Below are positions 1,622 through 38,022 of a stretch of 41,428 bases of DNA, in pieces. This stretch comes from a virus. Position 1 is the first letter of the stretch; each line of letters begins with the position of its first letter. The notes beneath the pieces were generated by a model, which was not told the DNA's origin, did not search any database, and saw only the letters and a list, made by a program, of their open reading frames with translations. The DNA lies in the IMG/VR virus record IMGVR_UViG_3300029319_000126, positions 1 to 41,428 of that record; one strand, written 5' to 3'. Position numbers and translations under genes: made by a program.

Positions 1622-4107
1622 AGTTTACAACGCTTGTTCAAAATGCTGATATCTTCTCAGTGCCGAAAAACTTTGACCAGCTTCTTAGAGTCTCAGAAAA
1701 AAAGCTGCTATATTCATTTAATTTTGAATTTGATGTAGCTAACGCATCTAGAAGAAAAGTTCGCCGCTTGGACTTAAAGTTCTCTACAGAAAAACCCGAA
1801 AAGGATTTTAATCCGATAGTCTCAACTAGAAGGAATTCTATCAATAGTTTTTTTGAGCAATACATGAGCAATAGCTTTATCGATCTTGTTCTCAAACAGA
1901 ACAAAGAAGATTTAGACATTAAAATCAGAAACGATAAGAAGTATTTTCATAAATCTCAAGTTTCTTTTTCCGCTAGAGAAAATCCTTCAATCTATAGGCT
2001 TCTTAATAGACGCCTTGACAGAAAGTCAATTGTAGCCGCGCTCCCCCCGGTTCGAACTTATTCTTTGCAGAGAGCAGGCAAGCTAACTAATAGCCCAAAA
2101 AGAGTTCCTGTAATGGGAGGCCAAAAAAGAGGAAGAAGGTCAAGAAAGTCATCAAAAACATCAAGCTTGAGATCAATTCTAAAATTCGGCGCACACTCTT
2201 CAGAGGCATATCGCTCTTCAAAAACTCCCGTATTCGGAAGAAAAGTAGCAGGTGCATTTAGATCTAAAAAAACCTCCAAGTCGTCAGGAGCTGGATCTCG
2301 CGGAAAGTCTTTGAGGAACTCTAGAATGGGAGAAAATCTAAGGTCTAGAAGTTTAGGAAATTTTGCCTTCTCAAGAAATGTATTTTCAACTAATAACTTG
2401 CCTCCATCTTCCTTAGTCCAGACTTATAATTTTGTAAGAACTCCAAAAAGAAAAATCTCTAAGAAAGTTGTAATGCCTAGATCTGTTCTAAAAAAAGTCG
2501 GAAGGTTTTTTATAACCATCAATGCAGTTGACGATCGAGGGATAACAATACAGACAGAGTTTTTAGAAGTCAATCATGCTAAAAATATGATAACATTCAC
2601 TAAGCCCCTTCTTGCCCCCGACATCAGAAGCACTGCAACAAGACAGCCTGGAAGAAACATTGTAAAGATAACACAAAAAGACGAACGCGCAACAGGTTTT
2701 ACTCTTCTCAAGAGATCCATAGGCAACTCAGACTTTGATATTAGTCGACCATACGAGGTGGTGGGAAGATTTCCTCTCAAGTTTGGGCAAGGAACTCGGA
2801 CAGTTAGGGACAAAACTAATAATGCTAAGACTGTTATCTATAGAGCAATTCCTTATCTGGGAAGAAGTAGCCTTACATCTACGTTTAGTATGCTGGTTGT
2901 AAAGGGATTAGACAAAGTCATCCACAAGAGGGGCACTCGCCTTAACAATGCAAGTATCTTTGCTGAAAATGAAATAAGTTCTGTCCGAGTGGAAATAAGT
3001 CATATTTTAGATGATCCGGTGGCCCTTCAGTTAGTGAGAAGAGACTTAACAAAACACCAGAAAGTGTATTCAAATGTCAAAGAAGGATTCATGAAAATAA
3101 GAAATGCTAATAATGGGGCAACTTATGAGTTTACGGATACTACGACAAAAAACAATCACATATACGAATACGGGTGTTTTATGATCTTTTCTAATGGTGA
3201 GAGAGTTTTTACAAATGACACGTCTGTTGTGGAACGACGCCCCCGAAATCCAAAATCAGCATCTATTATTATATCTAATTTTTCCGTAGATGAAGAAGAA
3301 AGAAATGTGACTTTCGATGTTGAGTCTGAAATTTCAAAGCAGACTCCTGATGAACTCCAAGATCTTTTAGAAAACCAGGGATTATCATCTATTTTTAACG
3401 ATGTTTTGAGTTCTAATAGAGATGATCTCAAAGGCTTAATTGCACACGAAATCAAAAGAATAGACAAAAACTCAGGTGCTGAGGAGTATTTCGGAGTTCT
3501 CACAGGAAAGACTTTTGATGATGAAAAGCTAGGGAAGATAATGGGAGTTTCACCAATTCAAGAAGGGCACACATACAGATATCAAATCTCAACTCTTCTA
3601 AGAAAGCCCCAGCAGCTAGTTCCAGGTTACACACAAGTTAAAGACGGGCCCAACGGAAAGTACCTGCTATCTCCTGCAAAATACTTTAATCCCTATACGT
3701 TAAGAACTGGAGTTGGTGTTGAAGGGGGCAATCCTTCAAGCGTTGCAACGAGCCCTCTAGCATTAGGATCTTTAGATAACTTTGAAGAAATTGATGTAAG
3801 CTTTCCAATAATTAATCCAGAGGTTACCAGTATTCAAGCACAGCGCTACACTAGAAATTTTGTTAAAATAGACTGGGAAATATCAGGAGAACCTGCAAAA
3901 ATAGATTACTTTGTTCTAGTAGAAAGCCAGTTCGGAGTTCAAAAGATTGTTGACTTAATTCATGCTAACACTGATAACAGCTCTTTTCAATATCTTCATG
4001 AGATTGATCCAGAAAACCCAGGTGAATTTTCATATCAAGTCATTCCAAAGTTAATTAACGGTGATGATGGTTTAGCGGCTACAAGCCCTAGTTTGGTAAT
4101 TCAATGA
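1618..4107 (+). CDS. Large virion protein with basic Ser/Arg/Lys-rich segment and C-terminal FN3-like domain
   Basis: An 829-residue protein with no recognised enzymatic motif. Residues about 159-247 are a striking low-complexity stretch very rich in Lys, Arg, Ser and Gly (for example KRGRRSRKSSKTSS), strongly basic and probably disordered. The last ~100 residues (about 730-829) have the alternating pattern of a fibronectin type III domain: 'PEVTSIQAQRY', 'VKIDWEISG', 'IDYFVLVES', then 'YQVIPKL'. Such domains are common surface or adhesion modules in phage tail proteins. The start codon overlaps the upstream stop (ATGA at 1618) and its own stop overlaps the next ATG (ATGA at 4104), so it is the middle of a translationally coupled trio. 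I infer a baseplate or tail-surface component; the role of the basic segment is unknown. Confidence 0.65.
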   Translation: MKFTTLVQNADIFSVPKNFDQLLRVSEKKLLYSFNFEFDVANASRRKVRRLDLKFSTEKPEKDFNPIVSTRRNSINSFFEQYMSNSFIDLVLKQNKEDLDIKIRNDKKYFHKSQVSFSARENPSIYRLLNRRLDRKSIVAALPPVRTYSLQRAGKLTNSPKRVPVMGGQKRGRRSRKSSKTSSLRSILKFGAHSSEAYRSSKTPVFGRKVAGAFRSKKTSKSSGAGSRGKSLRNSRMGENLRSRSLGNFAFSRNVFSTNNLPPSSLVQTYNFVRTPKRKISKKVVMPRSVLKKVGRFFITINAVDDRGITIQTEFLEVNHAKNMITFTKPLLAPDIRSTATRQPGRNIVKITQKDERATGFTLLKRSIGNSDFDISRPYEVVGRFPLKFGQGTRTVRDKTNNAKTVIYRAIPYLGRSSLTSTFSMLVVKGLDKVIHKRGTRLNNASIFAENEISSVRVEISHILDDPVALQLVRRDLTKHQKVYSNVKEGFMKIRNANNGATYEFTDTTTKNNHIYEYGCFMIFSNGERVFTNDTSVVERRPRNPKSASIIISNFSVDEEERNVTFDVESEISKQTPDELQDLLENQGLSSIFNDVLSSNRDDLKGLIAHEIKRIDKNSGAEEYFGVLTGKTFDDEKLGKIMGVSPIQEGHTYRYQISTLLRKPQQLVPGYTQVKDGPNGKYLLSPAKYFNPYTLRTGVGVEGGNPSSVATSPLALGSLDNFEEIDVSFPIINPEVTSIQAQRYTRNFVKIDWEISGEPAKIDYFVLVESQFGVQKIVDLIHANTDNSSFQYLHEIDPENPGEFSYQVIPKLINGDDGLAATSPSLVIQ

Positions 4108-7100
4108 CGTCGAGAAAGAGATCAAAAGCAGACGATCTAAAAGCTTTTGTAACCACAGATCCTAGTCCGGTTGTGGAGTCGAATAGAATAAGCACAGAAT
4201 TTAGAAAGCTCGTCTCTGAGATTGATAAAATATATCAAAAATCTGTTCCAGATCGAGGTGCCCAGAATTCTAGAAGAGATCTTAAGATTAGTGAGCTTTC
4301 TTCCGAGGACTTAGATGATGTGCTATCCCTAATTCAAAAAACAGTCAACAAGAGAAAAACAACTGCAAATCCCGAAAGAGCATATGCTGCAAATTCTTTT
4401 CCATCTACGAACGTTGCTTTTACGCAAGACGGCGAGGAAGACGAAGACGAAGTTCTTATAAATCCAAGCGAATTTGATGAAAGAGTTGCGAATGAAATTG
4501 CAAACCCACAGAGAGTCAGGGGAATTTCTACCTATAGGCCTGAAATTCTTATGTTGACAGATTATGAAAATTCAGTTCCCGGATCACCTGCAGCAGAGAT
4601 GATTGACCTCCAAATAAACTCTAGGTATGTAAGGGCTGATGCTATTGAAGCACTCATCAAAGAACTTGACCAGGACCCAGACTCAGAATCAGCAAAAATC
4701 TTACAGAGGCTAAGAGATAAATTCAATGAAGATCTTGACGATATTTTAAGAGAAGTAAATTTCCTAAAGTCTTTTTTTGACTCCAGAGATAACCTGAATT
4801 CTGCAATGTCGATAGTATCTGATCAAGATTCCATCACCGCAGAGTGCCAGAAACTTAGGGATCAAACCATCAAAAAGAGCAAAGTCATCCGGGAAATAGA
4901 AGAACTTCAGGAGTCTAAGTCTCTGAATGATTTCTTGGTTCAAGACTTAGGGTTTAATCCGGAAAACATAAAGACAAAGACTGGGTCTACAGCTTTCTTG
5001 CAGATACTTAGCGACCTCCACAAGAACATTGTGGAAATTTATAGGTATGACGACGCGGCAGTCGAACAAGAAGAGCTGAGATATAATCTTGATGATGACT
5101 ACGAGATTATAAGAAAAGGAAGGTCTCGTTTTAGAGCAGACTGGGCAAATAAATTTTACAAAGGCTCTGGTAGGCCGTTCATTCCTGTCAAGAAGGAAGA
5201 TATGAGCCTGTTTAGAAACAAGCGTGCTAGCTCTTATAGGACACCCGGAGATCTCGCGCTCGGAGTATCCCAATATGCTCGGTTTGTGACAAAAGAATAT
5301 ACAATATCCTCAGGGATTGATAACTCAAATATACAGACTATTTTATCTGAAGAGTTTGATGAGTCCCTAACAGGTGACGTTTTTGATGGAATAACAGGAA
5401 TACCGGGCGAAACTGCACTTTCCAGGCCTCAATATAGTAAACCAGACTCAGTAGCCGCGCTTGCTAGAAGGTTTGAGCGGGTTAATAACCGAAACATTAA
5501 AGTTTTTCCTTTTGAATCAACACCTCTTCCCAACAATTCTACAACTAGCAAGACCGGTAAGCAGTTTTATGTTGATTCGATTACTAAAACGAAGGACAAG
5601 AACATAAATTTAAATCCAGTGAGCCAATTTAAAGAGCAGGCTTTAGAAAAATCAGATGCTGCTTATGAAGTCATGAATACACTTCTCGGATATGATGGCA
5701 CCGGAGTTTTTGCGCAAGAGATGATGGATGAAATTATTAAATCTATTGCAAAGCTTTTCGATGTTCTCAATCCAACAGACAATGTAGAGACATATGATCC
5801 CAGCATGGCACTCCAGCTAGCACTTCTGACTTGGATCAGTAATTGGCAACCAGGAATTTATGTTGCCGGTGAACTAGTGCAGCAAATTTTACTGTTAAAG
5901 GCTTTAAAGAGATTTGAGAGTGGAACCTCAAACTCTATTACTTTTGAAAAGATGTCAAATCTTGATGAGCCTAGACTTCTTTCAACTCTTAAGGGGAGGC
6001 CTTGGACGCGCAATGAACTACCTGATGATGTAAAAAACGGGACAACACCACTTGGAAATTTTGCATTCCAGAACATTTATGCTCGCACACTCTCAGACTG
6101 GGTAGGTCAAAAATATCCCTATGCTGACAGCATCTCAAATCCCAATCAAGACACTACTGATGATGCATTTCAGGTGAGAATTAGATATCGAGACTCCGCG
6201 GCGACGGCATTTTTCGGAGCTTCTATCACGGCCTCAAACAGTATTTTTTCTGAAATACTGGGAGTTATTGAAAAACTCGATGAAAAAGTGAAGGAAAGAG
6301 GAAATCCCTACAGGCCTGATGATGCCGCCGGAACAAGATTTAACAATATTTCTCCAAGCTCTTTGGTAGCTGCTGTCATGTCAATTTATAGCATGATCAT
6401 CCAAAAGATGCCCAGGATAATCTTTCACCCATCATACGGTGTTAAAAATCAAGGCGATAGAGCACAGCGACAATTTTATGTCCACATTGACAAGCAAGAA
6501 ACTCTAGACTTTAAGCAATCGCTTGACCAATACATGCAAGGAGGCCTCGACGCTGTCGACCCCCAGTCGCAATTATCACAGTTTTTAAGATCACTCAATA
6601 GAATATTAGAGAAAGATATATCGATCAATTTGAACTCACTAGAAATTATGCGCTCAATTCCTGAAAATATCGCTAAGAGATATGGAAGCCTAGCTTTGCT
6701 CACAGATCCTGAAGGTCCCAGCGCAGAATCTTTAGCACAAATTTTTGGCGAGGATAATGCTAAGCAAAAGCTTACCGTAGTTGACGAACCCCAGCTGGTC
6801 TTAGGCATTAACTCTCTTGAAAATTATTTAAAATTCAAGACTGATGAAAATCCTGTATTTTTCCCCACAGACTTAATTGATTCTTCAACTCGAAAAGCTT
6901 TGAAAAAATTTGCAACAATGAATCGATCACGAGGCTCCAGCGGTCGACCTGAAATCTCTCTGAACGGGGCAAGATCCAAAAATGTTAAAATGATTACTGT
7001 GGGCCTTCCAGCAGGACTAACGAGCTTTATAACTAAAAAAACGCGTCAAGAAATTAGGCAAGGACAAGGGAACCAGAAAGATATTGTTGATATCAATGTC

Positions 7101-7976
7101 TACATGAAGAACCTTAATTATGATAAGCTTGTTTTTAAGCCTGCCACATTTTCTTTTGAGCTTTCAAGATTCTTTAAGGGGCTGAATGAAATACCAGATG
7201 ACAATACAATGAACTTTGGACAAATCATTCAAGAATTTGGAGTTACCAGAGACATTCAAGTCAATCGAGACCCTCAAGTCCTAGACACTATAGGTTTTGC
7301 CCTTCCAAACAGAGACCAGTATTCTGAGTATTCAAACGAGACAATGAATGAAGTGATTTTCAACACTGTCCAAAGTCATTTTTGCCACTTGTATTTAAAG
7401 CTTTTGACAGGCATTGATCCTTGCGAATCTTCTTTTCTGTATGTTGTAAACGACGAAGCGCAAAGCCTCCAAAGCTCAGACTTAGCAGAATTTAATGCAC
7501 TTGTTCAGGGCCATGTAAGTAATCTGGCGCCGGGGCTCACTCTCGACCAGATTGCACTTCAAAATCCACAGATGAGAGATGTCGTAAGAAGAATAAAGAC
7601 AGGAGAAAAAACCCAGGGCGTTTTAAAGGAAGTAAGCTCGGAAATAGCTAATGCCTCTAGAGATCAAAACATAAAAATATCTGAAGACCTTGTCAATCTC
7701 TCTAAGCTTGTTTCTCCCCAGTCTGCACTAACTTCTCCCGGCGTTTTAAAGAAGAAAGCTCTGACACCAAAGCTTTTTGAAAGAGTATTTACGGTGCTTG
7801 TAGATCCTGACAACTTTGAGATAGACGGAGCTAGAACATCCTATAGAGATCGCGTGAATCTTGTAAGGTCTGGTATTTTAACAGGCGATGGGCAAAGATT
7901 TACGTCATCTGCAAGATATCTCAATAAAGCAACACTTAACCAGTTTTTCGTTACTGTGTCTAGAAGGGAACAATAA
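4104..7976 (+). CDS. Giant hypothetical virion protein (1290 aa)
   Basis: I do not recognise this 1290-residue protein. It is one of the longest genes in the window. The N-terminal third is charged and looks largely helical (many Glu/Asp/Lys/Arg with heptad-like leucines, residues about 180-330). An Asp/Glu-rich patch lies near residues 110-120. No signal peptide, membrane segment, nuclease, protease or lysozyme motif stands out. Cysteines are very rare; a short cluster (F-C-H and D-P-C-E) lies near residues 1093-1107. It is coupled to the upstream gene by ATGA and followed after three bases by the next one, so it belongs to the same structural cassette. Its size and context are compatible with a baseplate wedge or hub-type protein, but this is inference. 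Confidence 0.6.
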   Translation: MTSRKRSKADDLKAFVTTDPSPVVESNRISTEFRKLVSEIDKIYQKSVPDRGAQNSRRDLKISELSSEDLDDVLSLIQKTVNKRKTTANPERAYAANSFPSTNVAFTQDGEEDEDEVLINPSEFDERVANEIANPQRVRGISTYRPEILMLTDYENSVPGSPAAEMIDLQINSRYVRADAIEALIKELDQDPDSESAKILQRLRDKFNEDLDDILREVNFLKSFFDSRDNLNSAMSIVSDQDSITAECQKLRDQTIKKSKVIREIEELQESKSLNDFLVQDLGFNPENIKTKTGSTAFLQILSDLHKNIVEIYRYDDAAVEQEELRYNLDDDYEIIRKGRSRFRADWANKFYKGSGRPFIPVKKEDMSLFRNKRASSYRTPGDLALGVSQYARFVTKEYTISSGIDNSNIQTILSEEFDESLTGDVFDGITGIPGETALSRPQYSKPDSVAALARRFERVNNRNIKVFPFESTPLPNNSTTSKTGKQFYVDSITKTKDKNINLNPVSQFKEQALEKSDAAYEVMNTLLGYDGTGVFAQEMMDEIIKSIAKLFDVLNPTDNVETYDPSMALQLALLTWISNWQPGIYVAGELVQQILLLKALKRFESGTSNSITFEKMSNLDEPRLLSTLKGRPWTRNELPDDVKNGTTPLGNFAFQNIYARTLSDWVGQKYPYADSISNPNQDTTDDAFQVRIRYRDSAATAFFGASITASNSIFSEILGVIEKLDEKVKERGNPYRPDDAAGTRFNNISPSSLVAAVMSIYSMIIQKMPRIIFHPSYGVKNQGDRAQRQFYVHIDKQETLDFKQSLDQYMQGGLDAVDPQSQLSQFLRSLNRILEKDISINLNSLEIMRSIPENIAKRYGSLALLTDPEGPSAESLAQIFGEDNAKQKLTVVDEPQLVLGINSLENYLKFKTDENPVFFPTDLIDSSTRKALKKFATMNRSRGSSGRPEISLNGARSKNVKMITVGLPAGLTSFITKKTRQEIRQGQGNQKDIVDINVYMKNLNYDKLVFKPATFSFELSRFFKGLNEIPDDNTMNFGQIIQEFGVTRDIQVNRDPQVLDTIGFALPNRDQYSEYSNETMNEVIFNTVQSHFCHLYLKLLTGIDPCESSFLYVVNDEAQSLQSSDLAEFNALVQGHVSNLAPGLTLDQIALQNPQMRDVVRRIKTGEKTQGVLKEVSSEIANASRDQNIKISEDLVNLSKLVSPQSALTSPGVLKKKALTPKLFERVFTVLVDPDNFEIDGARTSYRDRVNLVRSGILTGDGQRFTSSARYLNKATLNQFFVTVSRREQ

Positions 7977-7979
7977 GAG

Positions 7980-9809
7980 ATGACAGTTCAAAACTCAGTC
8001 CCCACACCCATTGTTCCTGTGATGGACTTTCCAGCACCAGATACCAAAAAATTTAAAGCGAAATTCTTTTACAACTATTATGTAAAAGACGAGGCTACAA
8101 ATGATCTTGGTAGGGTTCCTGATGAGTTATCTTCCATACCCGGCGAAGAGATAACAAATAAGCAGTTAAATAAATTTAGCACACAGATTCCTAGATTTGT
8201 AAGGCTTGATTTTGCTCCTGCTAGTCACACTAGTTATGAAACCTTAGCAAGAAGAACTTTAGAAAGAAGCGCAGACAAGTTTGTTAATGACTTAGGAGTG
8301 ACAAAAAACGGTTTTGTCCCGCTAGACTTGCAGGACACAAACGTGAGAGATAAGCTTTATACGCTAGTAGAAAAAGCCTACGAGAGAGAAGTCAGGCGTA
8401 ATAATGACTCTGTTGAGAAAAATATTGAAAAAGCAAAAAAAGATCTTAACGAAGTTATGGCTAAGTCACAGACCGACAAAGCAAAAGCTCTTAACAGGGT
8501 ATCTCGCGCTGACGCAAATTTCATCAGCGATGCACTTAATAATCTAGAGAGAGCAGGTCAAGCTTATGTTTCACCGGATTCTCGGGCTGACATGACCAAG
8601 AGATCATTTCAAGCTGCTCAAGAACTATCAGTGAGAACTAGAGTTAATGCCAAATTTTTAGACTCCGTAGTAAACAGCACTATTAACGACCCACTTTCTT
8701 TATTCGCGGAAGAGTTAATACCTCTAAAGAAAAGGTCCGAAGAGATCCAGGATGCTGCCATCACAAATTTCTCTAGTCTAAGGCTTGGGCCAAGAAATTT
8801 TAGACAAACTTTTCCAAGCCCGTTTAGCTTAAGAAATGTGTCTAGCAGTAACTACGATACAAACTTTAGCATTGTCGGATATGTAATCGACAAGAGAGAG
8901 CTATTAGACTCGGGTGCTTATATACAGCATGACCCTATTGTTATTCCGTTTCCCAAGGCTAGTTCTTATGTAGACTTTAAAATAAAGTATGGCACAACTT
9001 ATTCATATGCAATTCGAACTGTTATTTCTCTAAAGCTTCTCCGGACTTCTCGTGGAACTAATCAGTATGTGGTTCGAAGCATGCTAATGACAAGCCGCCC
9101 AACATCAAGACGAACATTTGTTTGTCACGAACCAGTTCCTCCACCTCCAGTTGGCGATCTTACTGTAACTTATTCTTATTCCAAGAAGGGCTCGCGCCTG
9201 ATGTGGAACATGCCAACAAATCCACAGCGAGATATCGTAAAGTTTCAAATTTTTAGAAGAAGAACCATAGAAGAATCCTTCACGCTGATAAACGTGCTCG
9301 ATTTTGATAACTCAGATGTCCGTTTTGTTGGAAGAGAAATTATCAATCCAGACGTTGTAACCAGAATCACCCAGCCTGCAACTCTTTTCATAGACCAAGA
9401 GTTTGATAAAAACGAATCTTATATTTATGCTATAGCTTGTGTTGATGCTCACGGACAGTCGTCAAATTACAGCAATCAGATACAAGTCAGTTTTGATGTA
9501 GAAAAGAACAGGATTAACTCTAGAAGAATTTCAAGATCAGGTGCCCCGAGGCAATATCCTAATTTTTATATTAAACAGACGCTCTTTAAGCAGACTATTT
9601 CAACATCAGAAGCAAAGAGAATAAAAATTTATTTTGATCCAGAATATTTAGATGTAGATCAATCTTTAAAAAGGCTTGGATCTGAATCAGTTGATGAACA
9701 AAGTTTGTTAACTAATGAAGAAAAGGGAAAGTATATTTTACAGCTTCTCAATACAGATTTACAGCAATCTAAATCTATTGATATACTTATCAAAGATCTT
9801 AGAACGTAG
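7980..9809 (+). CDS. Virion protein with FN3-like domain
   Basis: A 609-residue protein starting three bases after the previous stop, with AAGAG just upstream of the ATG. Residues about 385-505 look like a fibronectin type III domain: a proline-rich lead-in (PVPPPPVGDLTVTYSYS), 'SRLMWNMPTNP', 'IVKFQIFRR', then 'YIYAIACVDAHGQSSNYSNQ', the usual Y-x-V/I-x-A-x-D-x-x-G-x-x-S-x-x-S ending of FN3 repeats. Residues about 120-200 are charged and probably helical. No catalytic motif was seen. It shares the FN3 feature with the 829-residue neighbour, which supports a role in the same surface-exposed tail or baseplate assembly. Exact function unknown. Confidence 0.65.
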   Translation: MTVQNSVPTPIVPVMDFPAPDTKKFKAKFFYNYYVKDEATNDLGRVPDELSSIPGEEITNKQLNKFSTQIPRFVRLDFAPASHTSYETLARRTLERSADKFVNDLGVTKNGFVPLDLQDTNVRDKLYTLVEKAYEREVRRNNDSVEKNIEKAKKDLNEVMAKSQTDKAKALNRVSRADANFISDALNNLERAGQAYVSPDSRADMTKRSFQAAQELSVRTRVNAKFLDSVVNSTINDPLSLFAEELIPLKKRSEEIQDAAITNFSSLRLGPRNFRQTFPSPFSLRNVSSSNYDTNFSIVGYVIDKRELLDSGAYIQHDPIVIPFPKASSYVDFKIKYGTTYSYAIRTVISLKLLRTSRGTNQYVVRSMLMTSRPTSRRTFVCHEPVPPPPVGDLTVTYSYSKKGSRLMWNMPTNPQRDIVKFQIFRRRTIEESFTLINVLDFDNSDVRFVGREIINPDVVTRITQPATLFIDQEFDKNESYIYAIACVDAHGQSSNYSNQIQVSFDVEKNRINSRRISRSGAPRQYPNFYIKQTLFKQTISTSEAKRIKIYFDPEYLDVDQSLKRLGSESVDEQSLLTNEEKGKYILQLLNTDLQQSKSIDILIKDLRT

Positions 9810-14234: not shown

Positions 14235-14798
14235 ATGCTTTTATTGGGACTCGATATCTCTACATCTTGCACAGGATTTTGTGTGCTAAACAAGTCAGGT
14301 GATGTAGTCCTTTTGGACTATGAAGACTTTAAGGGCTGCAAAGACTTTTGGGAAAAAGCCGACCGAGTTGAAGAAAAAATTAAGAATATTTTAGGCAAGC
14401 TTAAATCACTGGGTAGGATTGAGAAAGTTTTTGTTGAAGAAAGCCTCCAAAAGTTCCGCCCCGGATTATCGTCAGCTAAGACCCTTACTACGTTGTCAAA
14501 GTTCAATGGTATTACCTGCTATCTTGTGAGGTCCCACTCTGAATGTTCTCCTGAATACTTGAATGTAAATACTGCTCGAAAGCTTGTAGGCCTCAAGGTG
14601 ATAAGAGGCAAAGACACAAAAGAGCAGGTTTTTGAGTGGGTAAAGGAAGATAAGCCGCTTAGTTCTTACGATTGGCCTAAAAAGATTTTAAAGTCAGGAC
14701 CTAGAAAGGGATCTGAGATAGTTCATCCTTCGTGTTATGATATGGCCGATGCCTATGTTATTGCAAAAGCAGGACTTGTAAATTTGTCAAAAAACTAG
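14235..14798 (+). CDS. ruvC: RuvC-like Holliday junction resolvase
   Basis: A 187-residue RNase H-fold nuclease of the RuvC type, expected to cut branched DNA (Holliday junctions). The four acidic residues of the family are visible: D7 in 'LLLGLDISTSCTG', E68 in 'KVFVEES', and D169/D172 in 'YDMADAYVIA'. The spacing and the total length are usual for RuvC-like enzymes. In T4 the unrelated endonuclease VII (gp49) clears branched DNA before packaging; this protein could fill that role here, which fits its place upstream of primase, Mre11-Rad50 and terminase. It starts one base after the stop of the LamG protein, so it is likely co-transcribed with virion genes. Confidence 0.88.
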   Translation: MLLLGLDISTSCTGFCVLNKSGDVVLLDYEDFKGCKDFWEKADRVEEKIKNILGKLKSLGRIEKVFVEESLQKFRPGLSSAKTLTTLSKFNGITCYLVRSHSECSPEYLNVNTARKLVGLKVIRGKDTKEQVFEWVKEDKPLSSYDWPKKILKSGPRKGSEIVHPSCYDMADAYVIAKAGLVNLSKN

Positions 14799-14810: not shown

Positions 14811-15779
14811 GTGAAGCATATACACACGACTGAAGAAAAGCTTGTATTTATAAAGCAGGTTTTTGGACCAGCACACTTAATGTCAGACGGTGTTAATGCA
14901 CATGTAATGTGCCCTTCTTGCGGCAAGTCTCATAAAAAGAAAAAGTTTGTAATTAGGTTAGACAATGATCTTTGCCATTGCTTTGTATGCGGTCTTAAGT
15001 CCAAAAACCTAACACCTATTTTAAGAAGATTTTTTGGTAGAGAGGTTGCTTTAAAGTATAGCAAGACATTCTTAGGTAGTGATAATACACTTGAAGAATT
15101 CGCCGGCGAAGAACGCCTGGTTTTGCCAACAGATTTTCGCCTGATATCTGAGTCTCTGTCTTCTAATGATCCTGACTTTCGAGCTGCTATCAAATATTTG
15201 AAAGAAAGAGGTATTCCTAAGAAAGATTTCTGGTATTATAAGTTTGGCCTATCTTTTGAAGGCGCCTTTAAGCGCAGAATCATTATGCCATCTTTTGATG
15301 ATGAGGGTGGTTTAAATTTTTTTACTGCAAGGTCTTACGACAACAGTCACTACATGAAATATCATAATGCAAAGGTCAACAAAACGCAGATTATCTTCAA
15401 CGACATTAACATAGACTGGACTCAGAAGCTAACGTTAGTAGAGGGACCATTTGATCTTGTTAAAGCCAATCCTAACTCTACGTGCCTTCTAGGTTCTTCT
15501 CTTTCGCGCGAATCTTTACTGTTTGAAAAAATAACTAAAAACAAGACGCCGATAGTTTTAGCTCTCGATGCAGACGCTCAATTAAAAATGATAAAAATTG
15601 CAAACTTGCTGTATGATTATAATATCCAGGTGGAAATCATGAGCCTGGGAGGAAAAGAAGACGTCGGTGAGATGTCGAGGAAAGAATTCAATGAGGCATA
15701 TAAAGATGCAAAGCTCTGGTCACCTCAAGATTCGCTAACAGCTAAAATTAAGTCTTTAAGAACGGGTTCACTTCTCTAA
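14811..15779 (+). CDS. DnaG-type DNA primase
   Basis: A 322-residue primase that would make RNA primers for lagging-strand synthesis. An N-terminal zinc-binding element is seen: C34-x2-C37 ('CPSCGK') paired with C57-x2-C60 ('CFVC'). A middle segment, 'RRIIMPSFDDEGGLNFF' (about 155-171), is typical of the DnaG catalytic core. A TOPRIM domain follows with 'LVEGPFD' (E211) and 'LALDADA' (D253, D255). The length is close to T4 gp61. The start is GTG: an in-frame TAG lies 15 bases upstream and no in-frame ATG comes before the conserved zinc motif. The ribosome-binding site is weak. The stop TAA shares one base with the next ATG (TAATG at 15777-15781), implying translational coupling with the Mre11-Rad50 fusion. 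No replicative helicase is visible in the window. Confidence 0.87.
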   Translation: MKHIHTTEEKLVFIKQVFGPAHLMSDGVNAHVMCPSCGKSHKKKKFVIRLDNDLCHCFVCGLKSKNLTPILRRFFGREVALKYSKTFLGSDNTLEEFAGEERLVLPTDFRLISESLSSNDPDFRAAIKYLKERGIPKKDFWYYKFGLSFEGAFKRRIIMPSFDDEGGLNFFTARSYDNSHYMKYHNAKVNKTQIIFNDINIDWTQKLTLVEGPFDLVKANPNSTCLLGSSLSRESLLFEKITKNKTPIVLALDADAQLKMIKIANLLYDYNIQVEIMSLGGKEDVGEMSRKEFNEAYKDAKLWSPQDSLTAKIKSLRTGSLL

Positions 15780-18700
15780 TGTCAGTTAGAATCGCACACA
15801 TAGCAGATGTTCACTTTCGCCCTTTGTCGAGGCATGATGAACAGCGGCTTATTTTTGAATACTTCTTTGAAAAAGCCAAAGAGCTTAAGGTTGATCTTAT
15901 TTATGTCGGGGGCGACATATATCACACCAAGACACAAGGGATAACGCCAGAAGTCATTGATCATATGGCGTGGTGGTTTACTGAGCTTTCTAAGGTTGCA
16001 CCCACACACGTCATTCTGGGCAACCACGATGGCAACATGGTAAATCTGGACAGGCAAGATGCAATTAGCCCGATTGTAAAGGCTCTCGATAATAAAAGGC
16101 TTTTTCTCTACAAGCAATCAGGAACTTACCCTACGGGAATACCGGGCTATAACTGGTCGGTCTTTTCTTGCTTCGATGAGGAGGGGTGGAAAGACGTCAA
16201 GCCCGTAGAGGGCGAGATCAATATCGCTACTTTCCACGGTTGTGTGGTAGGCTCTAAGACAGACCAGAATTGGGAGCTTGAAGGTGATGTTCCCCTTAGC
16301 TTCTTTGACCCTTACGACTTTACGATGCTGGGAGATATTCATAAGCAGCAGTTCTTAACGCCTGACAAAAGAGTAGCTTACTCTGGTTCCACTTCGCAAG
16401 GAAACTACGGAGAAGACATTGATAAGGGTTTTCTAGTCTGGGATATTAGATCTCGAGACGACTTTGATGTTAATTTTCACCCTTTGCCAAACCCGCACCC
16501 GTTCGTAACTGTTGATTGGAAAGGGACAGTTCAAAACACTTTAAAAGAAGCGCAAAAACAGCCAGATGGTTCAAGGTTTCGAATCAGAACATCTGAGACA
16601 ATACCTCAGATTGAGATCAAGCAGATTCATACTGAGCTAAAAGAGCAGAAACAAGCAAAAGAAGTAGTTTGGAAATTTGAAACTTTTCAAGAGGGTAGTG
16701 ACATAGAAGGAGATGCGTCTCTTCTCGGAAGAGAAGATTTAAGAGACGCAAAGACCCAGATGGACTTACTTAAGTCATACAACGGTGAAAGCAGGTTTGA
16801 AGAAAAAAGATGGGAAGAAATAGAAGATCTCGTAACAAAATGCGTCAATAAAGTTGCGCGCACAGATCCATCTATTAGAAATAGAAAATGGGAAATTAAA
16901 GAGCTAGAATTTGACAACGTTTTTTCTTACGGAAAAGGTAACAAAATAAACTTTAAAAACCTGTCGGGAATAACGGGTATTTTAGGTCCCAACAGATGCG
17001 GAAAGTCTTCGATTGTCGGGACTATTGTATATACGCTTTTTAATTCCACTGACAGGGGGTCAATAAAGAATCTTCATGTTATTAATTCTAGGAAAGGCCA
17101 CTGTCTTTCAAAAGCAACAATCGGAATCGGATCTGAAGACTATGTTATCGAGAGACAGTCTGTTAAAAAAGAAGACAAGTGGGGCAAAGAGTCTGCAATA
17201 ACTTCTCTAAACTTTTCCAAAGTTGACCCAATGGGCAACGTAGTGCAAGATCTTAACGGTGAGCAAAGAACTCAGACAGAAAAAGCTATTCGTGGAATGC
17301 TGGGCAACGCAGAAGACTTTCTTCTGACATCCCTGGCTACCCAGGGAAATATGAACGAGTTTATCAACCAGGGATCATCAGCTAGAAAGAAAATACTGTC
17401 TAGGTTTTTGGACCTTGACATGTTTGACACAATGTCAGGTTTTCTCAAAGAAAGCGCTGCCGAAATTAAAGGAAAGCTAAGTAGCTATCCTGAGAGGGAC
17501 TGGAGTGCTTCCATAGTTATGCTCCAGCAAAAAAAGAAAGAATACAATCGCTCGATCCAGAAAATAGAGAAAGACCTGATAGCACTTAGGGACGATCAAA
17601 GAAGAATTCAGATTGAGCTTGCTGGGTTTAGTGAAGAAGATTTAATCACTGAGTCTGACGTAAAGAAGCAGCAGGAAATAGTCAAGGATTTGTCTGAGAA
17701 GAGAGACGCCCTAAGAGGTAAATTTGAAAAATGTGCAGAAGAGCTCTCTAATTTAAATGCTATTGCAGTTAAGATACTTGAAGTCAAAAAGCAGTTTCCG
17801 ATCTCCGAGATTCGAGAAGAACACGAAAACCTTCAAGATCTTGAGCGATCGCTAACAAGCCTTGAGCACGCTCGCGAGCTAGAAAAGCAAATTTTATCCA
17901 GCGCCAGAAAGCTGGCCAAAAAGCTTGAGCCCTGTGATTGCTTTGAGCACAAGCCGACGTGTCAGTATGTCAAGAAGTCCGACAAGCAAAACAAGCTTAT
18001 TATCAAGCACAAAGAAGTGATAGACGAACAGTCATCTGAGCTTCGAGCAATACGAAGAACTGTAAAGAAATTACAAGATCAGAACCTTAAAGAAAAGATA
18101 GACAAGCACAATAAGCTCACCCTAAAACTATCAGAAAATACTGTTCATATAACGCAGAAAAAAAGCAATAAAGACAGGATCTACAGAGACTTAAAGGCAG
18201 TCGAAGATGCCTTATCCACTGAAGAAAAACTTTATGATGAAATGGTAGAAAAGTCGGGAACTACTGATGTATCTGAAGTTGTGGTTCGACTTAAAAACAA
18301 GCTCTCTGAAATTGTTCAAGACATTCAAGAGCTTGACTCCAAGAAAATGTCTTCTGCAGAGTTAAAGGGAAATGCTGATAGTCAAATTAAGAAATTAAGA
18401 ACTGAAAAGAATGAATACCAGAAGCTTAGAAAACAATGGGAAAACTATGATTTCCTTTTGAAGTCGTGGTCTAAAAAAGGTATTCCGGCCAAGATCATAG
18501 AATCACAACTGCCTACGATCAATCAGGAGATATCAAAGATCCTTGCAGGAGTTACTAATTTTACTGTAAGTCTCGAGACTGATCCTGAAACTAATGCAGC
18601 TGAAGTTTACATTGATTACGGAGACAGTAGAAGAATTATAGAGCTGGCATCTGGAATGGAAAAAATGATATCTTCTCTTGCAATACGAGTCGCGCTTCTT

Positions 18701-18922
18701 AATATTTGTTCTTTGCCCAAGACGAACATGCTTATTATTGATGAGGGTTTTGGAACTCTGGATGAATCTAACGTTGAGGCATGCAACAGGCTTTTATCGT
18801 CTCTCAAGAAATGGTTTAAGAACATACTTGTAATTACTCATGTAGACTCTGTCAAAGATGCGGTTGACAATACGCTGGAAATAACTACTTCTAAGAAAAA
18901 TTCTAAGATAAATTATGACTAA
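15779..18922 (+). CDS. Single-chain Mre11-Rad50 (SbcD-SbcC) recombination nuclease
   Basis: A 1047-residue protein that joins two normally separate subunits (SbcD/SbcC, T4 gp47/gp46), which process DNA ends and branched DNA in recombination-dependent replication. Residues 1-250 are the Mre11-type metallophosphoesterase: D10-x-H12 ('IADVHF'), 'GGDIYH' (44-49), 'GNHD' (81-84), 'FHG' (152-154) and 'GDIH' (185-188). From about 370 the Rad50-type ATPase begins: Walker A 'GPNRCGKS' (403-410), long coiled-coil arms (about 570-900) broken by a cysteine cluster C719-x-C721-x6-C728 at the zinc-hook position, the signature 'ELASGMEKM' (955-963), Walker B 'MLIIDEGFGTLDE' (984-996, D988/E989). No stop or frameshift separates the halves. 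Upstream overlap is one base (TAATG); downstream overlap with the zinc-ribbon gene is eight bases. Confidence 0.92.
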   Translation: MSVRIAHIADVHFRPLSRHDEQRLIFEYFFEKAKELKVDLIYVGGDIYHTKTQGITPEVIDHMAWWFTELSKVAPTHVILGNHDGNMVNLDRQDAISPIVKALDNKRLFLYKQSGTYPTGIPGYNWSVFSCFDEEGWKDVKPVEGEINIATFHGCVVGSKTDQNWELEGDVPLSFFDPYDFTMLGDIHKQQFLTPDKRVAYSGSTSQGNYGEDIDKGFLVWDIRSRDDFDVNFHPLPNPHPFVTVDWKGTVQNTLKEAQKQPDGSRFRIRTSETIPQIEIKQIHTELKEQKQAKEVVWKFETFQEGSDIEGDASLLGREDLRDAKTQMDLLKSYNGESRFEEKRWEEIEDLVTKCVNKVARTDPSIRNRKWEIKELEFDNVFSYGKGNKINFKNLSGITGILGPNRCGKSSIVGTIVYTLFNSTDRGSIKNLHVINSRKGHCLSKATIGIGSEDYVIERQSVKKEDKWGKESAITSLNFSKVDPMGNVVQDLNGEQRTQTEKAIRGMLGNAEDFLLTSLATQGNMNEFINQGSSARKKILSRFLDLDMFDTMSGFLKESAAEIKGKLSSYPERDWSASIVMLQQKKKEYNRSIQKIEKDLIALRDDQRRIQIELAGFSEEDLITESDVKKQQEIVKDLSEKRDALRGKFEKCAEELSNLNAIAVKILEVKKQFPISEIREEHENLQDLERSLTSLEHARELEKQILSSARKLAKKLEPCDCFEHKPTCQYVKKSDKQNKLIIKHKEVIDEQSSELRAIRRTVKKLQDQNLKEKIDKHNKLTLKLSENTVHITQKKSNKDRIYRDLKAVEDALSTEEKLYDEMVEKSGTTDVSEVVVRLKNKLSEIVQDIQELDSKKMSSAELKGNADSQIKKLRTEKNEYQKLRKQWENYDFLLKSWSKKGIPAKIIESQLPTINQEISKILAGVTNFTVSLETDPETNAAEVYIDYGDSRRIIELASGMEKMISSLAIRVALLNICSLPKTNMLIIDEGFGTLDESNVEACNRLLSSLKKWFKNILVITHVDSVKDAVDNTLEITTSKKNSKINYD

Positions 18923-19231: not shown

Positions 19232-19633
19232 ATGCTGTCATTTGATAAAATAAACAAGCTAGGACAAGTTTTAAATTCAACTTTTGGCGAAGGTTCCACA
19301 GAATCAGGGCCAAAAGCTTACGATACCTTTAATGGTAGAGCATGTTCAGGAAAAATAATTGAGGGAGATCAGCTTAAGGTATCATACATTACGATTGTTA
19401 ATATGCCAGTTAATCCCGACCCAAACTTTGAAAGAAGACTATCAGAGGAGTCAATGAAGATTATCTCTGACTTCGTTGATAAAACTAAGAAGCAATACAA
19501 GGAATATGCAGATGAGACTCTTCGTCTAAAAGAAGAGAATAGTGTTGACAGCATTGAGCTAATTGCGCTCAATCAATACAGTCCTGTTAAGAGGGCTTAT
19601 TATAGGCGAAACACAGTATACAGCATTTCATAG
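19232..19633 (+). CDS. Hypothetical protein preceding terminase
   Basis: A 133-residue protein with ribosome-binding site GAGGAG (19220-19225) and ATG at 19232. I cannot assign a function. The middle has a helix-rich, charged segment (residues about 68-105: 'RRLSEESMKIISDFVDKTKK', 'YKEYADETLRLKEE'), framed by beta-type stretches, and it ends with 'PVKRAYYRRNTVYSIS'. I recall similar 'YYRRKT' endings in small proteins of marine T4-like phages. The gene sits where T4 carries the small terminase subunit gp16, directly before the large subunit and eight bases from its ATG. No DNA-binding helix-turn-helix is obvious, so the small-terminase idea rests on position and helical content only. Confidence 0.55.
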   Translation: MLSFDKINKLGQVLNSTFGEGSTESGPKAYDTFNGRACSGKIIEGDQLKVSYITIVNMPVNPDPNFERRLSEESMKIISDFVDKTKKQYKEYADETLRLKEENSVDSIELIALNQYSPVKRAYYRRNTVYSIS

Positions 19634-19640
19634 CGCTAAT

Positions 19641-21248
19641 ATGGCTGCAGTTAATAAGAAAAAGCAAATTGCAGAAATTGTAAAGTCGGGAAAAGACCCC
19701 GGCTATTTCATGAAAAAATATGTAAGCATCCAGCATCCTAATCGAGGGATGATAAAGTTTCAGCTGTATCCTTTTCAAGAAGAAAGCTTAACAGAATTTA
19801 AAGATAATAGATTTAACGTAGTTTTAAAATCGCGCCAATTAGGGCTTTCTACGCTAGTTGCAGCTTATGCCCTCTGGATGGCTATCTTTAAAAAAGACAA
19901 AAACATTTTAGTTATCGCGACAAAACTTTCAGTTGCAGTAAACTTTATTAGAAAAGTAAAGACAATGCTTAGGTCTTTACCTGGCTGGCTAGTTTTACCC
20001 CAGATAGTAGCAGATAATCGCCAGACAATAGAGTTTAATAACGGCTCTATAATAAAAGCTGTTCCTACCTCTGATGACGCAGGTCGATCAGAAGCACTCT
20101 CTCTTTTGATTGTTGACGAGGCAGCATTTGTTAAGAACTTTGACACGCTGTGGATGGGTTTGTATCCTACACTATCAACGGGTGGAGAAGCAATTATTTT
20201 GTCAACTCCCAACGGAGTGGGTGGTCAATATCACAAGCTCTACACAGATGCAGTTCTAGGAGAAAATGAATTTAATGCTATAAAGCTACCCTGGGATGTC
20301 CATCCGGAAAGAGGGGAAGATTGGTTTTCTACTGAAACTAAGAACATGTCTAAGCGCCAAATTGCGCAAGAGCTTCTATGCGACTTTGTGGCGTCAGGTG
20401 AAACTTTTCTACAGTCAGAAAATCTTGAGTGGATAAGAGATATGGTTCGAGAACCCCAGGACCGATGGGGAGATGACAATAATATCTGGGTATGGCAATA
20501 CCCTATGTCTTCTCACAAGTATATTATATCTGCTGACGTTTCTCGTGGAGATGCAAAGGATTTTTCCACTTTTCACGTGATAGACGTTGACACAGATGAA
20601 GTTGTAGCTGAATATAAGGGCAAGATCCCTCCCGATAGATTCGGTGAGCTTCTTGAGTGGACAGGAAAGAAGTATTATAACGCTCTTATATGCCCAGAAA
20701 ATAATACTTTTGGTTACACGACGGTAATGAAATTAAAAGACATGGGATATCCTAACCTCTATTATGAATCAAGTAGAGGCTTTCTCATTGGAAACTATAC
20801 AGCTTCACAAGACAACAAAGTCCCAGGCTTCAGCACACAGGGTAAGTCAAGAGTTCAGATACTTTCGAAGCTTGAAGAAGTAATAAGAAACAGATCAATC
20901 AGAATATATTCGAGCCGCTTATATGATGAGCTTAAGACCTTTATATGGAAAGGCCACAAAGCCCAGGCACAAAAAAGCGCAAATGATGATCTTGTTATGG
21001 CACTGGCGATAGGGGTTTGGCTTTATGATGCCGGGGGCAACTACAGCAAAGATTCAGATACGCTCAACAAGTCGATGCTGGCAGGAATGTCAGTAACTAA
21101 CAGAACATACGAGCAGCCAAAGATGTCGTCTAACACGCCCATGAAATCCATCAATCCCTTCTCAGCTGTCAAAGATGAAGATTACCAAAAGCTTAGAAAT
21201 AACAACCCGCGTCTTCCTAACACTAATTTTGACTGGTTGAATAAATGA
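19641..21248 (+). CDS. terL: Terminase large subunit (gp17-like)
   Basis: A DNA-packaging motor with ATPase and headful nuclease, 535 residues from the ATG at 19641. Visible motifs, numbered from that start: deviant Walker A 'SRQLGLST' (64-71), Walker B 'LLIVDEAAF' (D159, E160), coupling motif 'LSTPNG' (187-192), and the RNase H-like nuclease triad D299 ('ISADVSRGD'), E353 ('CPEN') and D449/D450 ('NDDLVMALA'). The frame stays open upstream to a TTG at 19563, but that start would overlap the previous gene by 71 bases. The ATG lies eight bases after that stop and leaves the family-typical N-terminus ('YFMKKYVSI', 'FQLYPFQE') intact, so I chose it; its ribosome-binding site is weak. The portal gene follows after 63 bases. 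Confidence 0.93.
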   Translation: MAAVNKKKQIAEIVKSGKDPGYFMKKYVSIQHPNRGMIKFQLYPFQEESLTEFKDNRFNVVLKSRQLGLSTLVAAYALWMAIFKKDKNILVIATKLSVAVNFIRKVKTMLRSLPGWLVLPQIVADNRQTIEFNNGSIIKAVPTSDDAGRSEALSLLIVDEAAFVKNFDTLWMGLYPTLSTGGEAIILSTPNGVGGQYHKLYTDAVLGENEFNAIKLPWDVHPERGEDWFSTETKNMSKRQIAQELLCDFVASGETFLQSENLEWIRDMVREPQDRWGDDNNIWVWQYPMSSHKYIISADVSRGDAKDFSTFHVIDVDTDEVVAEYKGKIPPDRFGELLEWTGKKYYNALICPENNTFGYTTVMKLKDMGYPNLYYESSRGFLIGNYTASQDNKVPGFSTQGKSRVQILSKLEEVIRNRSIRIYSSRLYDELKTFIWKGHKAQAQKSANDDLVMALAIGVWLYDAGGNYSKDSDTLNKSMLAGMSVTNRTYEQPKMSSNTPMKSINPFSAVKDEDYQKLRNNNPRLPNTNFDWLNK

Positions 21249-28634: not shown

Positions 28635-30566
28635 ATGAGTAAATTTTCGCTTGAAACTCTTGCGGAAGGCATTCGTGAGCGTCACTTGGGTCAAGAAAGC
28701 GAACGTCTAGTTGAGAAGTGGGGTCGTACTGGCCTTCTTCGCGGACTAGATGGAACTCGCAGAGAAAACATGGCGCGCCTACTGGAAAACCAGTGCGCTG
28801 AAGTTCTCCGTGAGCAAAGCTCGATTTCAACCGGTGCTGGTGGTCTCACCTCATCCGGCGACCTTCGTGGTTTCTCTAACATTGCTTTCCCAATCGTTCG
28901 TCGAGTTTTCGGTGGCTTAGTTGCCAACGAACTCGTCTCCATCCAGCCCATGAGCTTGCCTTCCGGCCTGCTCTTCTATCTGGATTACACCTACGGATCT
29001 GACATTGGTGGTGATTCCCCGCTCGACTTGAGCTCGGATGCTGCTACCGCTTCTACATATGAGAAGGGTCAATCCATTTATAACAACCCAGCAGGTAAAG
29101 CCGTAAGAACCGGCTCTGATGCTACAGGTGGTCAATACGACTTGGTTGGAACAACCTACTCCAAGGTTCACTCCTCCTCAAACGGTCTTGTCCTCCGCGC
29201 TTCTGGTGCTTTCGGTGGATCTGCTGGCTTCACCACAGGCGGTAAGGCTGTTGCCACCGGAACTGATGGTAAGCTACTCCAGTTTGACCCGCAAGTTACA
29301 AACTTGATCGAAGAAGACTCAGGTCTTGACGGCCTAGGTCAGTTCTCGTTCTTGATGGTTGACATCACAAATGACAACTTTGCTGGCATGGACATGACGC
29401 AAGTCAAGGATATCTCACTGTTCAGTGCTGTACAGGGATCATCCACTGCGGCAATTAACCCAGGACTTGCAGTTCCCGGAACCTCAATTCAGGGTGGTAA
29501 CAACGTCCTTAACATTCGTCGCCTAAACCAGTTTGGTACATGGGACGGATCAAACTTCACCGCCAATCCTTTGATTGGTCGTACAGACACAAATGCTACG
29601 CTTCTTTGCGTTGTAACAGGTGTGTTCTCAGGTGATGCTGGTAACACCGGCGTTGGTGGCGCAGCATTGTCTGCTTCATACGCTATTGCTGATTCACTGA
29701 ATGTTGAGTCGGGTGTAGGATCGACCTTGGTCATTCCTTCCTTCGAATCAAACTTCAGCACTTCTGCTCCTTCACCCGCGATCCCCGAGATCGACATCAA
29801 GGTGGAGTCAATCGCAGTTACGGCAACCACACGTAAGCTGAGAGCTCGTTGGTCACCAGAATTGGCACAGGATCTTAACGCATACCACAGCCTTGACGCT
29901 GAGGTTGAGTTGACACAGATCCTTTCCGAGCAAGTTGCTCTGGAAATCGATCGTGAAATCCTGAACGACCTTCTTACAGAAGCTCGTGGTGCTAACCTTT
30001 ACTGGTCACGTGCTCCTGGTAAGTTCGTGAACAAGGAAACAGCTGCAGAAGTTAAGCTTAGCGATTCTCTCTCTGCTGGTCCTCGCTTTACGGGCACCGT
30101 CCGCGAATGGTATGAGACTTTGGTCGAAACCATTATCGACGTTGCTAACCAGATTCACCGCAAGACGCTTCGCGGTTCGGCTAACTTCATTGTTACCGGT
30201 CCCGATGTTGCCACAATTCTTGAGGCTTCGGTGATGTATCGTCCGGCTTATAGCTTGGATGGTGATGGCCAAGTAAGCAACCCCTTCAGCTTGGGTGCAG
30301 AAAGAGTTGGAACTCTGAGCAACCGCTTCCAGGTTTACAAGGACCCCTACTTCCCACGCAACAAGATTCTTGTTGGTTATAAGGGCGGTAGCTACCTTGA
30401 AACTGGTTACGTATATGCTCCTTACGTGCCGCTCATCGTCACCCCGACGATCTTCCAGCCAGAAGACTTCACACCCCGCAAGGGCGTGATGACTCGCTAC
30501 GGCAAGAAGATGGTTCGAGCTGACTTCTACGGAACCGTTACCTGCATGGATATGAACATTATCTAA
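28635..30566 (+). CDS. 23: Major capsid protein (gp23-like)
   Basis: A 643-residue HK97-fold capsid protein of the T4 type. Recognisable segments are 'ENMARLLENQ', 'FSNIAFPIVRRVFGGLVANE', 'SIQPMSLPSGLLFYLDYTYG', 'TRKLRARWSPELAQDLNAYH', 'LDAEVELTQILSEQVALEID' and the closing 'FYGTVTCMDMNII'. T4 gp23 has 521 residues; the surplus lies in the middle. A gp21-type cleavage site (L-x-E) falls at 'VLRE|QSSI', after residue 60, which would remove a helical propeptide. The ribosome-binding site is AAAGGAAAG. Codon choice differs from most neighbours: Arg is mainly CGT/CGC instead of AGA and Phe/Asn/Thr favour C-ending codons, as expected for the most abundant protein. A hairpin and strong terminator follow. 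Confidence 0.95.
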   Translation: MSKFSLETLAEGIRERHLGQESERLVEKWGRTGLLRGLDGTRRENMARLLENQCAEVLREQSSISTGAGGLTSSGDLRGFSNIAFPIVRRVFGGLVANELVSIQPMSLPSGLLFYLDYTYGSDIGGDSPLDLSSDAATASTYEKGQSIYNNPAGKAVRTGSDATGGQYDLVGTTYSKVHSSSNGLVLRASGAFGGSAGFTTGGKAVATGTDGKLLQFDPQVTNLIEEDSGLDGLGQFSFLMVDITNDNFAGMDMTQVKDISLFSAVQGSSTAAINPGLAVPGTSIQGGNNVLNIRRLNQFGTWDGSNFTANPLIGRTDTNATLLCVVTGVFSGDAGNTGVGGAALSASYAIADSLNVESGVGSTLVIPSFESNFSTSAPSPAIPEIDIKVESIAVTATTRKLRARWSPELAQDLNAYHSLDAEVELTQILSEQVALEIDREILNDLLTEARGANLYWSRAPGKFVNKETAAEVKLSDSLSAGPRFTGTVREWYETLVETIIDVANQIHRKTLRGSANFIVTGPDVATILEASVMYRPAYSLDGDGQVSNPFSLGAERVGTLSNRFQVYKDPYFPRNKILVGYKGGSYLETGYVYAPYVPLIVTPTIFQPEDFTPRKGVMTRYGKKMVRADFYGTVTCMDMNII

Positions 30567-37900: not shown

Positions 37901-38022
37901 ACACTACAGACGATGTTCTCTCAAATCGACTAAATGGTAAAATTGTGCTGGTTCCAACTCGTGCAATTGAGTTTATTTCACTAGACTTCGTAATTACCAA
38001 TTCAGGAGTTAGCTTTGAGTAA
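34942..38022 (+). CDS. 18: Contractile tail sheath protein, copy 1 (gp18-like)
   Basis: A 1026-residue sheath subunit. The N-terminus shows the family pattern 'FRSPGFFDQEVDLT', 'GTPAGVIGTAEKGPAFVPV', 'FGPYAVREFLKNRDAVTYVR', 'VLGAG'. The C-terminal domain has 'FPWFAPAGFNRGSL', 'LYDARVNPIANFP', 'IFGQKTLQAAQSALDRVNVR', 'RAIEFISLDFVITNSG'. These ends make the inner layer and linker contacts in contractile sheaths. T4 gp18 has 659 residues; about 350 more here lie in the middle and should form larger outward-facing domains. The gene at 38059 is a clear paralogue with matching blocks along its whole length, including the middle ('GCNLDPTSETYVARMIGD'). The upstream ribosome-binding site is TAGGAG. 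Confidence 0.93.
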   Translation: MAEQTFRSPGFFDQEVDLTQRENPPIGTPAGVIGTAEKGPAFVPVTVGSFADFQTKFGGLNSKRFGPYAVREFLKNRDAVTYVRVLGAGSNTSVSDINTTRAQGTVKNAGFSLASTAVAANIQPLGHMGTVQFLTAKHVVSASEAFGFPVFTDNSTIGNADANLVRAVLFTTNDARLGVLNHNQTGATIKTAFNEFATVGGKTAVLKDEFKLFVSTSAGTSYGNDDNIAGVRIFTASLNPRSINYVRNTLNTDPDRFAAEKHLLYAAFDVEPELATVARATNSVAMLSGSAHSSSDNPAAQAFRVAFGRFDTRYQTPRTTEFISQPFGDTEFDLFHFETISDGEYANRKFKVSIKAIRGSSDPAQERGTFTVQVRSYGDSDFAPQVLEEYPGCNLDPTSETYVARMIGDMKAFFNFDADDPDERRVMVQGKFPNKSKYVRIVMHSNVADDIVPATALPFGFRGLPALKTNDLNSDQQPNKSQARLAGYSAIDALTGSVVPPVPLTFKATRGAVSTTAGLVGKAGSTEVVDNRVYFGVKTTALASTGTVGNANLNANVGTSVNKGLQDQLMFLGLKKMDNLHTGSGADNFNDNKFTLARVALPNQAGGSSTGVYNDTELTGTVSEHMLDAAYIRNGIPDSTQYTITVGSDLSNRITFGTLLAQTSSVTFNRFTDFMKFTNVFFGGFDGVNTMDKNARRLNDKSVSLDSGGGAASGYVPAGFAANQNGAGKDNSGVRSYQAAADIMTDPFAVSTNILAIPGIRESFVTDHAMSRNKDYGMSIYLLDIPQFDDSDNRIYDDSSERPSVSKTSTQFEGRRIDNNTAAAYFPDVVIEDDINNERVKVPPSVAAIAALGFNDAVSFPWFAPAGFNRGSLDFVKNTGVRLTAGDRDTLYDARVNPIANFPQQGFVIFGQKTLQAAQSALDRVNVRRLMLEVKRAVSDVANRILFEQNTPATRARFISQVTPILATIQAQSGIENFKVVMDDTNNTTDDVLSNRLNGKIVLVPTRAIEFISLDFVITNSGVSFE

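Follow-up and report, generated by a model that had tools for sequence, protein, structure and literature searches.

The window analyzed here, a 41,428-nucleotide stretch that comprises positions 1 to 41,428 of the IMG/VR virus record IMGVR_UViG_3300029319_000126, contains an uninterrupted, ATG-initiated frame on the plus strand (15779..18922; 1047 codons without an internal stop) that encodes an N-terminal Mre11 (SbcD) nuclease and a C-terminal Rad50 (SbcC) ATPase, the arrangement that defines fusions of the Mimivirus R555 type. The Pfam family Metallophos (PF00149) covers residues 4-189 of the encoded protein (E = 5.5e-11) and SMC_N covers residues 373-1040, the SbcC family of PHROGs (phrog_77) extends over residues 254-1046 (E = 2e-59), and, when the family profile was compared with chains of solved structure, SbcD/Mre11 and Rad50/SbcC were each matched by the corresponding half. 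The motifs of both halves are strongly conserved across 85 aligned relatives, and both sets of active-site residues are maintained by purifying selection. An earlier interpretation of the window that used no database searches (hereafter, the sequence-only reading) had proposed that Mre11 and Rad50 are joined in this frame; the Pfam and PHROGs matches and the conservation confirm the proposal, and the motif positions that it had assigned in both halves are correct.

A frameshift or a missed stop codon at the junction, for which the segment 16700-16950 was checked, is ruled out by two other IMG/VR contigs (L006 and L007) and by the low ratio of nonsynonymous to synonymous polymorphism (pN/pS). 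Both contigs carry the gene for this protein (88% identity), with the frame open over the junction and no indels in the alignment with the window. In the comparison between the window and L006, in which synonymous sites are close to saturation, pN/pS is about 0.22 at the junction (residues 301-371) and in the range of 0.03 to 0.14 elsewhere, indicating that the junction is selected as coding sequence. The single polypeptide is a genuine Mre11-Rad50 (SbcD-SbcC) fusion.

In the Mre11 half, the motifs typical of the Mre11/SbcD phosphoesterases (the DxH, GDxxH/D, GNHD and H ligands) are represented by D10/H12, G45-D46, G81-N82-H83-D84, H153 and D186-I-H188. The capping domain (residues 236-300) and the C-terminal helices (324-335 and 342-362) expected of this family are present in a predicted AlphaFold2 model (49 sequences; mean predicted local distance difference test score, pLDDT, 84.8; predicted template modelling score, pTM, 0.53). 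The sequence-only reading had regarded the set of Mre11 motifs as complete, which needs one correction. All ligands are conserved except one: the metal-ligand motif GHxH is GDIH, with His replaced by Asp at position 186, in all fused relatives that were aligned. The same change is known for Mimivirus R555 (PMC3175470). Among the nucleases encoded by separate genes, GDLH is found in a T5-like phage, and GHxH in T4, cyanophages and Herelleviridae; given the GDxH motif in the split T5-like nuclease, the substitution is not bound to the fusion.

The Rad50 half contains Walker A (403-GPNRCGKS-410), the signature motif (955-ELASGMEKM-963) and Walker B with the D-loop (984-MLIIDEGFGTLDE-996), as well as the Q-loop and the H-loop, with the coiled coil interrupting the series as in other Rad50/SbcC proteins. 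The model consists of the nuclease, the cap, the two helices, a linker, the N-lobe starting at residue 370, coil arms of equal length and the C-lobe. A fold search with this model retrieved E. coli SbcCD, S. aureus SbcD and Mre11-Rad50 complexes; the best viral structural matches were giant-virus repair proteins of 1200-1390 amino acids (aa) from Tupanvirus, Yasminevirus and Harvfovirus. Coordinates of the domains and of the neighboring genes are given in Table 1.

Table 1. Domains of the fusion protein and adjacent genes in the window (ORF, open reading frame)
Feature	Coordinates	Strand	Basis
Mre11-Rad50 (SbcD-SbcC) fusion gene	15779..18922	+	single ATG-started frame, 1047 aa
Mre11 calcineurin-like phosphoesterase domain, residues 1-235 (D10, H12, D46, N82, H83, H153, D186, H188)	15779..16483	+	PF00149, conservation, model, structural match to SbcD 7dog
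Mre11 capping domain, residues 236-300	16484..16678	+	AlphaFold2 model; 7dog is a structure of nuclease and capping domain
Junction, residues 301-369: loop, helix-loop-helix (324-335, 342-362), linker of ~7 residues	16679..16885	+	model; indel-free in two other contigs; pN/pS ~0.22
Rad50 N-lobe, residues 370-546, Walker A (403-410), Q-loop (Q522)	16886..17416	+	conservation, profile matches, model
Ascending coiled-coil arm, residues 547-715	17417..17923	+	model
Apex (hook), residues 716-728, C721-X6-C728 plus C719 and H724	17924..17962	+	conservation, sequence comparison, model
Descending coiled-coil arm, residues 729-896	17963..18466	+	model
Rad50 C-lobe: signature 955-963, Walker B/D-loop 984-996, H-loop H1021; stop codon included	18467..18922	+	Pfam, profile matches, conservation
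RuvC-like Holliday junction resolvase	14235..14798	+	phrog_159, E 2.6e-13; upstream in 61 relatives
DnaG-like primase	14811..15779	+	phrog_47, E 1e-37
Cysteine-rich ORF, 93 aa	18915..19196	+	overlaps the end of the fusion gene; directly downstream in 80/80 relatives
T4-type terminase large subunit	19563..21248	+	PF03237, phrog_2; downstream in 80/80 relatives

A scan of IMG/VR with a query that favors fused proteins yielded at least 587 relatives; in all of the best 80 loci, which were examined individually, both halves are encoded in one frame, 1036-1082 aa long unless a contig end intervenes. When the hook sequence alone was used for a second scan, 80 loci were obtained (some contigs were common to both scans), and the Mre11 domain belongs to the same frame in all 49 loci where the frame is not cut at the 5' end. 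Each of 11 large contigs (123-289 kb) carries one copy; a search of these contigs, which may be incomplete, with the fused profile detected no second, separate SbcCD, and phages of the window's clade appear to rely on the fusion alone. Among GenBank phage records, 514 match the fusion protein, only two of them over at least 80% of its length (Microcystis phage Mel-JY01 and the uncultured phage LR756508); the fusion is also present in the duplicate records LR756501/LR756503, and cultured examples with longer single frames are provided by the Tenacibaculum phages pT24 and PTm1. The split GenBank phage records that were examined contain separate nuclease and ATPase genes. The sequence-only reading is supported in that the two proteins are encoded by two genes in T4, E. 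coli and most isolate phages with a matching Rad50. Its hint that the fusion is unusual is not supported: this kind of fusion was published in 2011, has cultured representatives and is the rule among the IMG/VR relatives. Fusion in 80/80 of the best IMG/VR relatives and split genes in most isolates show that the fused form is the ordinary state in a large, mostly uncultured, mainly marine phage clade and is rare among isolates, where "mainly marine" relies on published GOS/BIOME data (PMC3175470) and on general knowledge of the contig origins.

The phage gene is present also in bacterial and archaeal metagenome-assembled genomes (MAGs; loci L117-L124), in several cases as a nearly full-length frame; these are probably misbinned phage contigs, or prophages. 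Matches in plasmids were weak and limited to the C-terminal part of Rad50. Flavobacterium phage immuto (NC_055915, L091) is a close cultured relative of the window by terminase and capsid; neither an Mre11-Rad50 fusion nor Rad50 was detected in its complete genome.

Fusions of Mre11 and Rad50 have been reported from Mimivirus, a phage, plasmids and eukaryotes, with Bacillus phage 0305phi8-36 and a C. kluyveri plasmid named, and abundant marine phage copies beside primases were inferred in the same study (Yoshida, Claverie and Ogata 2011, PMC3175470). As a fusion, the window's protein confirms and broadens a pattern known since 2011 and reveals no new one. Mimivirus R555 shares with the window's protein the domain order, the architecture and the GHxH to GDxH change, and its marine phage homologs adjoin primases; however, R555 is 1351 aa long, compared to 1047 aa in the window. 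Another of the closest systems is the full-length fusion of Mel-JY01 (PP395634), which is 29% identical to that of the window and is likewise preceded by a primase but has a CxxC hook; the fusions of the uncultured phages LR756508 and LR756501 also resemble the window's protein except for the canonical CxxC hook. T4 gp47/gp46 (SbcD/SbcC-like, known as well as T4 Mre11-Rad50) combines the same two activities and catalytic motifs, also in a T4-type tailed phage, but is encoded by two separate genes instead of a single frame, with a 560-aa gp46, a GHFH motif and a CPTC hook. E. coli SbcCD has the same domains and forms the same functional pair, and its solved head structures match the model of the window's protein; it differs in being a two-subunit assembly encoded by two genes, with longer coiled coils and with an SbcC that by itself equals the entire fusion in length. 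A megaplasmid of Deferribacter desulfuricans (NC_013940) encodes Mre11 and Rad50 parts in a single 1204-aa frame, like the window, but this protein shows only weak similarity to the window's (E = 9e-7), along with a GHYH motif and a CNTC hook, and, judging by sequence, is probably a separate fusion.

We concatenated the two halves and built a maximum-likelihood tree from 40 rows, 32 fused (including the interrupted LR756508) and 8 split (T4, two cyanophages, two Herelleviridae, a T5-like phage, phage G and E. coli). All 32 fused rows form one group with 100/100 support, separate from the 8 split rows, and the trees of the individual halves reproduce this division, with support values of 85 (Mre11) and 99 (Rad50) in the Shimodaira-Hasegawa-like approximate likelihood ratio test (SH-aLRT). 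A single origin of the fusion is favored but not proven; the tree contains long branches.

In LR756508, a 484-kb phage (L002), the gene (3944-8169) is broken within the Mre11 domain, immediately after GDIHKRQ, by about 1 kb that contains a 305-aa ORF with a match to TnsA-like endonucleases (PF08722). A group I intron was considered and rejected: there was no Rfam match at the gathering level, and up to an E-value of 5, only one chance match to a snoRNA. Given that no Rfam intron was found, the interruption may be an insertion of an endonuclease gene that split the protein.

The tip of the coiled coil departs from the Rad50/SbcC pattern, with no CxxC zinc hook at the apex. In the window's clade, the hook is C-X6-C in 82 of the 85 aligned rows (consensus VPCGDxFPTCKFIKDS), with L001, L003 and L076 as exceptions, the last of these apparently with a longer spacer; the tip was noted in the window and within the loci L006-L087 and L117-L121. 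C719 and H724 are additions of the window's own subgroup. CxxC is present in all 7 split phage Rad50s examined and in the deeper fused branches (Mel-JY01, LR756508, LR756501, L123 and L124), and it occurs also in pT24/PTm1. One change of the hook state is required on the Rad50 tree and two on the Mre11 tree. Because sequence and structure still tie the protein firmly to Rad50, we place it among the Rad50-type ATPases, as one whose hook is a variant rather than the canonical zinc hook. The zinc hook does not figure in the discussion of the 2011 study (PMC3175470), and a literature search, to which most subscription journals were inaccessible, found no paper describing CX6C in Rad50; going by the searchable literature, this tip is the only apparently new detail of the fusion. 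The CX6C pair is probably a modified zinc hook. It is conceivable, although we would not favor it, that the replacement of CxxC in the window's clade entails a different mode of metal binding and dimerization, which in the window's own subgroup might take place inside a single chain (C719, C721, H724 and C728), and thereby alters apex-to-apex bridging.

The fusion gene belongs to a conserved array of a RuvC-like resolvase, a primase, the fusion, the 93-aa ORF, for which no known family was matched, and the terminase. The primase stop codon overlaps the ATG of the fusion gene (TAATG), and the primase is located directly upstream in 61 of the 68 relatives with sufficient upstream sequence. This neighborhood, together with the known role of T4 gp46/gp47, points to a function of the single-chain Mre11-Rad50 in recombination-dependent replication and end processing. 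Altogether, we consider it highly probable (roughly 90%) that the fusion is the only detected Mre11-Rad50 (SbcD-SbcC) complex of this phage, made as one chain. By extension from the family, two chains would pair via the Rad50 ATPase heads, the head dimer would clamp a DNA end upon ATP binding, and the tethered nuclease would trim or nick the clamped end. If the analogy with T4 gp46/gp47 holds, this activity would support recombination-dependent replication and the processing of the ends of a linear phage genome and could contribute to the degradation of host DNA. We propose that the fusion ensures that two proteins required in a 2:2 ratio are synthesized and transferred together, and that it adds no new activity. 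Such a single-chain, stoichiometrically fixed form of a central DNA repair machine could be useful for structural and single-molecule work.

Several points weigh against this interpretation. With GDIH in place of GHxH, metal binding could differ; the changed hook may point to an apex that fails to dimerize in the usual manner; the pTM of 0.53 leaves the mutual placement of the domains unfixed by the model; and the count of relatives comes from a query biased toward fused proteins.

The most substantial of the alternatives, which we nevertheless find unlikely, is that the fusion changes the mechanism, with the tether altering the geometry of the complex of two Mre11 and two Rad50 subunits (M2R2) or keeping the nuclease permanently engaged, so that the enzyme would be unlike SbcCD. 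The sequence-only reading went further and stated that the M2R2 geometry must differ, a claim that is not supported. In split complexes, Mre11 is docked on Rad50 by the helix-loop-helix, which is predicted to persist in the fusion (residues 324-362). Furthermore, the order, with Mre11 ahead of Rad50, suits termini that are known to lie close together: the T. maritima structure has the Mre11 C-terminus ~28 A from the Rad50 N-terminus, a gap that a tether of 9-12 residues would fit (PMC3175470), so that a different geometry is not a necessary consequence of the fusion. In the model, the last helix on the Mre11 side (ending at 362) is joined to the first Rad50 strand (starting at 370) by a linker of ~7 residues, a little below that estimate, which lends the alternative some support and makes a small geometric adjustment possible. 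The GDIH motif, present throughout the fused group, could be invoked in the same vein, but the split T5-like nuclease shares GDxH. Neither does the fusion need to alter stoichiometry, given that the split complexes are already 2:2.

It is considerably less plausible that the protein is a phage defense or host-takeover nuclease, akin to SMC-like anti-DNA systems, rather than a replication or recombination enzyme. SMC-type ATPases and nucleases do act in Lamassu and Wadjet/JetABCD, which appeared among the weaker entries of the fold search; the best matches, however, were Mre11-Rad50/SbcCD, and the conserved linkage with primase, resolvase and terminase as well as the presence in every large contig examined fit a core gene. 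Least credible, to the point of being negligible, is an artefact of sequencing or assembly that merged two neighboring genes. T4 and most isolate phages keep an adjacent gene pair, from which the loss of a stop codon would produce a similar picture, but the junction is open in L006, L007 and 80 further contigs, in several nearly full-length frames from MAGs and also in isolate genomes.

Elsewhere in the window, two adjacent paralogous tail-sheath genes (34942-38022 and 38059-41040) encode proteins of 1026 and 993 aa that are 35% identical; T4 has one tail-sheath gene. The T4-type major capsid protein (28635-30566; 643 aa) has its best Gp23 stretch in the C-terminal part (378-635), and the relatives align in two pieces, which suggests a large insertion.

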